Assembly (NCBI RefSeq): GCF_001730525.1
Contig: NZ_MDFN01000010.1
Location: 62,001 to 126,000 of the forward strand
DNA: 64,000 nt
Direction of reading: 5' to 3'
From: Arcticibacter eurypsychrophilus
GTDB lineage: Bacteria > Bacteroidota > Bacteroidia > Sphingobacteriales > Sphingobacteriaceae
In this document: positions 17,873-18,773 of the stretch, piece after piece
How the letters are laid out: every line of letters begins with the position of its first letter
Position numbering within the stretch: position 1 is the first letter of the stretch
The notes under the pieces: model-generated
Told to the model about the DNA's origin: nothing
The model's database searches: none
What the model saw: the letters and a program-made list of their open reading frames with translations, nothing else
Program-made: the position numbers and the translations under genes

Positions 17873-17901
17873 CAAAAAATAAGCTCCCGATGGGCGGAAG
17901 C
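17873..17901 (-). terminator. Terminator of the first tRNA-like RNA gene
   Basis: On the minus strand the stem GCTTCCG / CGGGAGC with loop CCCAT is followed by TTATTTTTTG. The same loop and layout, with compensatory stem changes, is found in the second unit at 18202-18231, so the hairpin is conserved as structure. Confidence 0.8.
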
Positions 17902-17940
17902 TCAAACTAACCAATTATAAACCTAAATTATTGAAAGGAG

Positions 17941-18050
17941 CTGTAGGGGAAGGAATCGAACCTCCAAGAAGTAGTTAGACCGTTTCCGGTTTTCCCATAA
18001 TCTCCACCACCGAGACAAGGAGGTGTGTCTGCCAGTTTCACCACCCTACA
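17941..18050 (-). tRNA. Aberrant class II tRNA-like RNA, copy 1 (about 110 nt; GTC at the anticodon position)
   Basis: Read on the minus strand, the RNA has a perfect 7-bp acceptor stem (TGTAGGG/CCCTACA), a Leu-type D arm (GTG...CAC with the loop GG), a T arm with loop TTCGATT, and an unpaired G after the acceptor. An eighth pair (C18051-G17941) is possible. By alignment with tRNA-Leu the anticodon stem is CCTCC/GGTGG with a central U-U mismatch, and the loop TTGTCTC puts GTC at 34-36. The loop has a pyrimidine at position 37, which is atypical of decoding tRNAs. The variable region is 41 nt against the usual 10-20 and includes an ACCG-GAAA-CGGT hairpin. No CCA is encoded. A tRNA-Leu or tRNA-Asp label would be unsafe. 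Confidence 0.6.
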
Positions 18051-18084
18051 GTATAATTAACAAACTGATAACCGTTTGTTGACT

Positions 18085-18116
18085 CAAAGATAATAACATA
18101 ACCTATACGTTGCAAA
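18085..18116 (-). promoter_or_regulatory. Bacteroidota-type promoter for tRNA-like copy 1
   Basis: On the minus strand TTTG, 20 bp, then TATCTTTG, a full match to the TTTG / TAnnTTTG consensus. The predicted start is near 18080, giving a leader of about 30 nt before the acceptor stem. The equivalent position of copy 2 carries the same ATTTGCAA start. Confidence 0.7.
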
Positions 18117-18201
18117 TATTTTAAAATAAAATATTAATAAATGTAAATAAAGTAATAGGGGATTAGCTTTTATGAAAATTATATAAACCAGAATTTTAGG
18201 C

Positions 18202-18231
18202 AAAAAAATAAGCTCTCGATGGGCGAGAGCT
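18202..18231 (-). terminator. Terminator of the second tRNA-like RNA gene
   Basis: On the minus strand a perfect 8-bp stem AGCTCTCG / CGAGAGCT with loop CCCAT runs into TATTTTTTTG. The roughly 40-nt trailer between the RNA and this hairpin is almost identical to that of copy 1. Confidence 0.85.
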
Positions 18232-18269
18232 CAAACTAACCAATTATAAACCTAAATTATTGAAAGGAG

Positions 18270-18378
18270 CTGTAAGGGAAGGAATCGAACCTTCAAAGAG
18301 TGGTTAACCGTTTCCGGATTTCCCATAATCTCCGCCACCGGGACAAGGAGGAGTGTCTGCCAATTTCACCACCCTACA
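18270..18378 (-). tRNA. Aberrant class II tRNA-like RNA, copy 2 (about 109 nt; GTC at the anticodon position)
   Basis: A diverged duplicate of the RNA at 17941-18050, with the same D arm, a T arm with a perfect 5-bp stem (GAAGG/CCTTC) and an acceptor stem TGTAGGG/CCTTACA with one G-U pair. The anticodon-position stem CCTCC/GGTGG, including its U-U mismatch, is unchanged, and the loop is TTGTCCC, again with GTC at 34-36 and a pyrimidine at 37. The variable region is 40 nt and keeps the GGAGATTATGGGAAA block and a CCG-GAAA-CGG hairpin. Conservation of the odd features in both copies argues against random decay. The type is uncertain: it could be a non-decoding regulatory RNA. Confidence 0.6.
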
Positions 18379-18409
18379 GTATTTTAAAAGCCCTAAAAAC
18401 TTGTTGATA

Positions 18410-18440
18410 CAAATATCGTTAAATTATTAATAATTGCAAA
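18410..18440 (-). promoter_or_regulatory. Bacteroidota-type promoter for tRNA-like copy 2
   Basis: On the minus strand TTTG, 19 bp, then GATATTTG, one mismatch from TAnnTTTG. It sits about 30 bp upstream of the acceptor stem, the same distance as in copy 1. Confidence 0.6.
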
Positions 18441-18773
18441 TACTTTAACACATTTTAACATTTATTATCAATTTAATAGCTTTAAAGGCAATTCTATGAC
18501 AAATTCAAAAACCAACAGAAGTAATTTCTTTTAATACCAGGTATCATTGCCCTTTTAAAAACACTATTATAGTAACGTAATATAAAAACCCATAGTACTT
18601 TATTTGAATGAATAAGTAAAATCAAATTTCCTACAGTTTTAAATGACAATATATTGAAAAACAAATTACATATTTGATGCTTTAGTAAAACATACAAATA
18701 CTTATAATATTGATGATGTGAATAATACTTCACAATACTGTATGCAGGCGAATCAATAAACTTAATATAGCAA

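Follow-up and report, generated by a model that had tools for sequence, protein, structure and literature searches.

The AspRS identity set has been established from the E. coli enzyme and consists of G34, U35, C36 and C38 together with G73. Ordinary tRNA-Asp(GUC) is a class I tRNA with a short variable loop and A37, and the Y RNAs, such as YrlA, are noncoding RNAs which mimic tRNAs and are found in bacteria and phages. A further group outside the normal tRNA set is formed by the allo-tRNAs and the selC* tRNA-Cys, which are non-canonical and have a long variable arm; some allo-tRNAs are encoded in polycistrons and cannot be used in translation (PMC7609411).

The window analyzed here, the whole stretch of 64,000 nucleotides from Arcticibacter eurypsychrophilus, contains two RNA genes which, judged by sequence comparison alone, are members of a separate family of class-II-like tRNA paralogs in Bacteroidota and their phages. 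By structure the RNA is a tRNA, with deviations in the variable arm and at positions 33 and 37. Its core has an L-shape like that of tRNA-Leu, and the family resembles this tRNA in the sequence of its D-arm and D-loop, in two bases left unpaired behind the variable arm, in A15-U48 and G18G19, and in the T-arm; however, it has G73 instead of A73, a GUC anticodon combined with a base other than A at position 37, and 20 to 100 additional structured bases in the variable arm. G34, U35, C36, C38, G73 and G2-C71 are common to the family and to tRNA-Asp(GUC), which differs in its class, its short variable loop and its A37, and of which the genome encodes a separate, ordinary copy. The family shares its non-canonical character, long variable arm and position outside the normal tRNA set with the allo-tRNAs and selC* tRNA-Cys, but it occurs in another phylum, has another anticodon and possesses a 7/5 acceptor/T branch in all parsed members, so that the allo-tRNA criterion of a 12-bp branch (8/4 or 9/3) is not fulfilled. 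An assignment as tRNA-Sec was rejected, as no UCA anticodon was found and GUC is present nearly throughout, and so was tmRNA, since the anticodon arm is present and covaries and no tmRNA was called in the window. YrlA differs in that the transcript ends of the family form an acceptor stem with G73-C74, and no Ro60 partner is available.

Organization of the Two Loci

On the minus strand, two complete transcription units are located between the genes for a universal stress protein (UspA) and a type III polyketide synthase (Table 1). A first-pass annotation of the sequence had placed two tandem tRNA-like genes here, and a search with the tRNA covariance model under permissive filters recovered both of them (C1:79941-80050 and C1:80270-80378), with scores of 33.2 bits for copy A and 31.8 bits for copy B against a cut-off of 29. 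The sequence directly shows the previously described lengths (110 and 109 nt), the U-U of the anticodon stem, the GTC in positions 34-36 and the pyrimidine in position 37. Each unit starts with a box, TTAAA[A/G]TATTTGCAA, which is followed after approximately 18 bases by a -7 box of the TAnnTTTG type and a leader of about 30 nt. The bodies begin with TGTAGGG, end with CTTACAG or CCTACAG, and continue into an identical trailer and a CCCAT-loop terminator. Individual promoters had been proposed from their TTTG/TAnnTTTG spacing and are indeed present at both copies, where they are of the Bacteroidota type, except that the -7 box of copy B deviates by one base. The proposed compensatory changes in the terminator stems around the same five-base loop were likewise borne out by the sequence and a terminator scan (AGCUUCC/GGGAGCU versus AGCUCUC/GAGAGCU).

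Table 1. Features of the two tRNA-like transcription units, in window coordinates.
Feature	Position	Strand	Basis
Copy A body, U1 to G73, 110 nt, loop UUGUCUC	17941..18050	(-)	tRNA covariance model match with exact ends; model R1, 126.5 bits; template parse
Copy B body, U1 to G73, 109 nt, loop UUGUCCC	18270..18378	(-)	tRNA covariance model match; model R1, 119.4 bits; template parse
Copy A promoter region: TTAAAATATTTGCAA box (contains -33 TTTG) and -7 box TATCTTTG	18085..18124	(-)	sequence
Copy B promoter region: TTAAAGTATTTGCAA box and -7 box GATATTTG	18410..18448	(-)	sequence
Copy A trailer CTCCTTTCAATAATTTAGGTTTATAATTGGTTAGTT	17905..17940	(-)	alignment of copies A-D; occurs elsewhere without tRNA-like body
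Copy B trailer	18234..18269	(-)	same basis as copy A trailer
Copy A intrinsic terminator, CCCAT loop	17880..17904	(-)	terminator scan
Copy B intrinsic terminator, CCCAT loop, stem changes compensatory versus copy A	18209..18233	(-)	terminator scan

Among the genomes checked, the UspA and polyketide synthase neighbors are retained in the closest sibling genome only and are therefore uninformative. A third full copy is encoded on contig C26 of the same genome beside an Lrp/AsnC gene. According to alignment and sequence comparison, the promoter box is common to copies A-D and to other families, the trailer sequence is identical across copies A-D, and copy-specific features are retained in the sibling species. 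Directly behind the C26 copy lies a partial tandem duplicate comprising the 3' part only (L006:2450-2645). On contig C6, a remnant lacks the middle of the RNA and retains promoter, acceptor ends, T arm, trailer and terminator (L007:2430-2555), and a similar unit was seen in another genome of the same genus (L039).

Comparative Support for the Cloverleaf and the Variable Arm

A template parse, which fitted all of the first 52 members, yields a cloverleaf with a 7-bp acceptor stem, a 3-bp D stem, a 5-bp anticodon stem with a 7-nt loop, the variable arm and a 5-bp T arm. In 83 distinct rows, 98.5% of the cells are paired and 21 of the 24 pairs change on both sides; none of 500 shuffles and no slid version of the alignment approaches the observed pairing. 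These rows include five non-member or partial matches and the alignment had been fitted to the structure; an unfitted seed alignment is concordant with the covariation. Folding of single sequences did not recover the cloverleaf (z about 0), so that the structural evidence is comparative. The RNA structure is under strong selection, and the earlier inference that non-standard tRNAs or tRNA-derived RNAs form a duplicated family under selection is supported by homology, covariation and conserved gene order, which carry it well past the two window copies.

The anticodon stem covaries in relatives (CCCTC/GGGGG, CCGCC/GGCGG, CCACC/GGTGG, CCGTC/GACGG), and its central U-U is the state of the Sphingobacteriaceae, other groups having C-G, G-C, A-U or U-A. 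It had been suggested that GGUGG might instead pair with the variable region and leave CCUCC free; this pairing is not supported and was rejected, because the sequence changes with compensation in relatives. The variable region has conserved helices of its own. In view of the compensated changes, CCUCC resembles the 16S 3' end only locally and without conservation, and a role of ACCTCCTT in the anticodon arm as an anti-Shine-Dalgarno mimic was rejected.

The base of the variable arm consists of a covarying 4-bp helix, a 5' bulge and a covarying 3-bp helix, and this base helix is paired in 210 of 239 members, with a shuffle maximum of 151. The internal loop has UAA on its 3' side in 228/239 and mostly GAN on its 5' side, and presumably resembles the UAA/GAN motif of rRNA. 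The length of the terminal hairpin varies between a few and more than 80 bases, and a long form with the element TTGACCA occurs in 60 of the 240 members. The variable arm of one viral relative (L260:1290-1393) is a plain hairpin like that of ordinary class II tRNAs, a possible intermediate. Another relative of 76 nt (L287:1839-1914; 64 bits, anticodon AUC) has lost the long variable arm.

Distribution and Detection of the Family

Altogether, 240 distinct members were collected, from most Sphingobacteriaceae, further families of the class, one family of another class and phages. Blastn matches, a count which includes matches to the trailer alone, were obtained in 89 of 150 related genomes, among which the majority of the genera in the family and some further families are represented. 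Across 392 genomes of the phylum, a covariance model derived from 19 diverse sequences of the family splits members (at least 74 bits and at least 107 nt) from ordinary tRNAs, its next best matches (mostly 55-60 bits and 83-87 nt); an 86-nt match of the ordinary kind (45.5 bits) was called tRNA-Leu by ARAGORN. In this sample, members occur in seven families (f1, f15, f36, f49, f52, f54, f91) and none were found in the large family f51. All ten genomes tried of f91, which belongs to another class, carry the RNA. Among the matches listed, genomes with the pattern include Pedobacter, Mucilaginibacter, Chitinophaga, Cyclobacterium, Algoriphagus, Saprospiraceae and others; the whole-genome searches were confined to the phylum Bacteroidota. 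The RNA also occurs in multi-copy tandem arrays. Furthermore, the pattern is present on 21 viral contigs, several of which carry a phage terminase gene. A 636-kb phage encodes a member plus an ordinary tRNA-Asp(GUC), and the contigs behind L257, L261, L265 and L290 contain the RNA among ordinary phage tRNA genes. No match was found on plasmids.

At default settings, tRNA finders miss the family, though it is present in most Sphingobacteriaceae, in other Bacteroidota families and in phages. ARAGORN detected none of the 240 members and default Rfam scanning (cmscan) named none of the members examined, the window copies included in both cases. With introns allowed, ARAGORN called 79 of the 240, with mixed and inconsistent identities which were judged meaningless. 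Rfam holds no family for these RNAs, and a literature search found no description, its coverage being incomplete with most subscription journals outside it. The family thus appears to have been unlabeled so far, with the reservation that the NCBI tRNAscan-based annotation of the loci was not seen. Its breadth, its place in phage tRNA arrays, the aspartate-type identity set, the divergent Lrp/AsnC gene and the separate trailer RNA had all escaped the first-pass annotation.

Identity Elements

The consensus of the anticodon loop is YUGUCNC. The pattern used for collection required GTC and C38 and left base 37 free; in the 240 members found with it, base 37 is U in 177, C in 41, G in 22 and never A, U33 is present in 220 and replaced in 20, and G73 is invariant. 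For removal of this bias, a model-only search over 59 loci was performed, which gave 85 members: the anticodon is GUC in 81 of them, UUC, CUC (two) and AUC in the remaining four, while C38 and G73 occur in all 85 and A37 in none. The AspRS identity bases G34, U35, C36, C38 and G73 are accordingly present (GUC with C38 in 81/85, G73 in 85/85), and since GUC, C38 and G73 are kept and A37 is absent, the bases read by AspRS are held and those favored by the ribosome at positions 33 and 37 are not. The elongator criterion of a purine at 37 plus U33 is not satisfied by the family; the ordinary tRNA-Asp(GUC) of the genome has the loop CUGUCAC and G73. Strict aspartate identity is not universal, because a few members have Glu-type anticodons (UUC, CUC), which were observed in the same scaffold at L104, L108 and L112. 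C74 is encoded after G73 in 240/240 members, and the 34 species of ordinary tRNA recorded for the genome agree in this, which suggests tRNA-type 3' maturation.

Association with an Lrp/AsnC Regulator

At 105 of the 139 chromosomal loci, the RNA has a gene of the Lrp/AsnC family as its divergent neighbor, mostly at a distance of 130-280 nt, and no locus showed this gene in co-directional or convergent orientation. Its products are 49-82% identical to the neighbor protein on C26, which has the AsnC-type HTH and ligand-binding domains of Lrp/AsnC regulators. The conserved gene order, with the divergent Lrp/AsnC gene at the founding locus of the family, spans families and two classes, and close Lrp homologs (about 165 bits and more) largely coincide with RNA-positive genomes. 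To our knowledge, no Lrp/AsnC member has been tied to a divergently transcribed tRNA-like gene. In f51 genomes, the nearest Lrp homolog (50% identity) has no adjacent RNA, and a similar coding sequence lies upstream in L275, L277 and L278. Apart from the Lrp gene, neighbors recur only as far as kinship explains, and the loci lacking Lrp have none in common. Beside the RNA gene, the regulator but no enzyme that uses an Asp-RNA was found, and no toxin or modification gene recurs near the RNA.

No Lrp gene adjoins the window copies; their promoter box recurs at Lrp-linked copies from several families, which makes control in trans by an Lrp/AsnC protein likely without proving it. The box may also be no more than a strong promoter.

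Possible Functions

The reading which we prefer, at somewhat less than even confidence and in the absence of transcript, charging or protein-binding data, is that of a tRNA-like RNA which accepts aspartate, is regulated and serves some purpose other than bulk decoding. The RNA would be transcribed from the box-containing promoter and, by inference, trimmed at both ends like a tRNA; CCA addition and aspartylation by the ordinary AspRS, whose identity set was not tested here, might then yield Asp-RNA. Base 37 could keep the RNA poor at decoding, and the charged form may be a dedicated aspartate donor or a signal of aspartate status, with the variable arm as putative docking site for a partner. 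The Lrp/AsnC protein would sense an amino acid, adjust the supply of the RNA accordingly and act in trans on dispersed copies such as the window pair. That the RNA is not a decoding workhorse is deduced from the constant absence of A37, the drift of U33 and the presence of an ordinary tRNA-Asp(GUC). Slightly more doubtful is the wider proposal of phylum-level, phage-shared RNAs which are charged with an acidic amino acid, act off the ribosome and constitute, together with Lrp/AsnC, an unknown aminoacyl-RNA pathway or amino-acid-status signal.

Two other explanations, each unlikely when taken singly, have not been ruled out and fall only a little short of the preferred one in likelihood. The RNA could be a specialized elongator tRNA-Asp, which is charged by AspRS and decodes GAC/GAU, perhaps in a particular growth state or on particular transcripts, its arm being tolerated as in class II tRNAs. 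The intact tRNA core with GUC in a normal 7-nt loop, the tRNA model score above the cut-off and the position of members beside ordinary tRNAs in phage arrays, which could equally mean translational use, agree with this, whereas a base 37 that is never A and mostly a pyrimidine, the 20 members without U33, and the ordinary tRNA-Asp(GUC) both in the genome and in the member-carrying 636-kb phage do not. Alternatively, a regulatory or decoy RNA might titrate or signal via a tRNA-binding protein (AspRS, a tRNA-modifying enzyme or a tRNA-cleaving toxin), with charging incidental or absent; in phages, such an RNA would blunt a tRNA-directed defense. G73 and C74 in every member would be unneeded by a pure loop decoy and no toxin or modification gene recurs nearby, but the large structured variable arm with its conserved internal loop, the tandem arrays, phage carriage and linkage to a regulator rather than an enzyme fit this explanation.

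A functionless tRNA-derived attachment site, a selfish repeat amplified by duplication or a pair of pseudogenes is very improbable: the partial duplicate and the deleted remnant in the same genome and the tandem spread of copies would suit it, but compensatory changes in every helix largely refute it, and the copy-specific features retained in the sibling species and a gene order conserved across families and two classes also speak against it. A bacterial Y RNA of the YrlA type working with Ro60 can be practically discounted. Y RNAs likewise mimic tRNA and occur in bacteria and phages; however, Ro60/TROVE (PF05731) is present in only 4 of 100 relatives and absent from the genome itself, which refutes this idea for this genome, and no Rfam Y-RNA match was obtained.

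The family represents a concrete candidate for a tRNA turned to another task and may explain part of the purpose of phage tRNA arrays. As a defined regulator gene adjoins the RNA, its function is open to genetic attack at once.

The Trailer Element

This genome contains five exact copies of the trailer, and relatives have as many as 19. In 100 genomes searched, matches were confined to the same family, and a reversed control gave none. Together with the terminator, the trailer AGGTTTATAATTGGTTAG forms a separate small-RNA 3' module, observed behind both window copies and at L038, L040, L042-L048 and L270-L272. Three genomes of Sphingobacteriaceae lack the tRNA-like RNA, and in them the Lrp gene still faces a promoter-like stretch that leads straight into the trailer and terminator.
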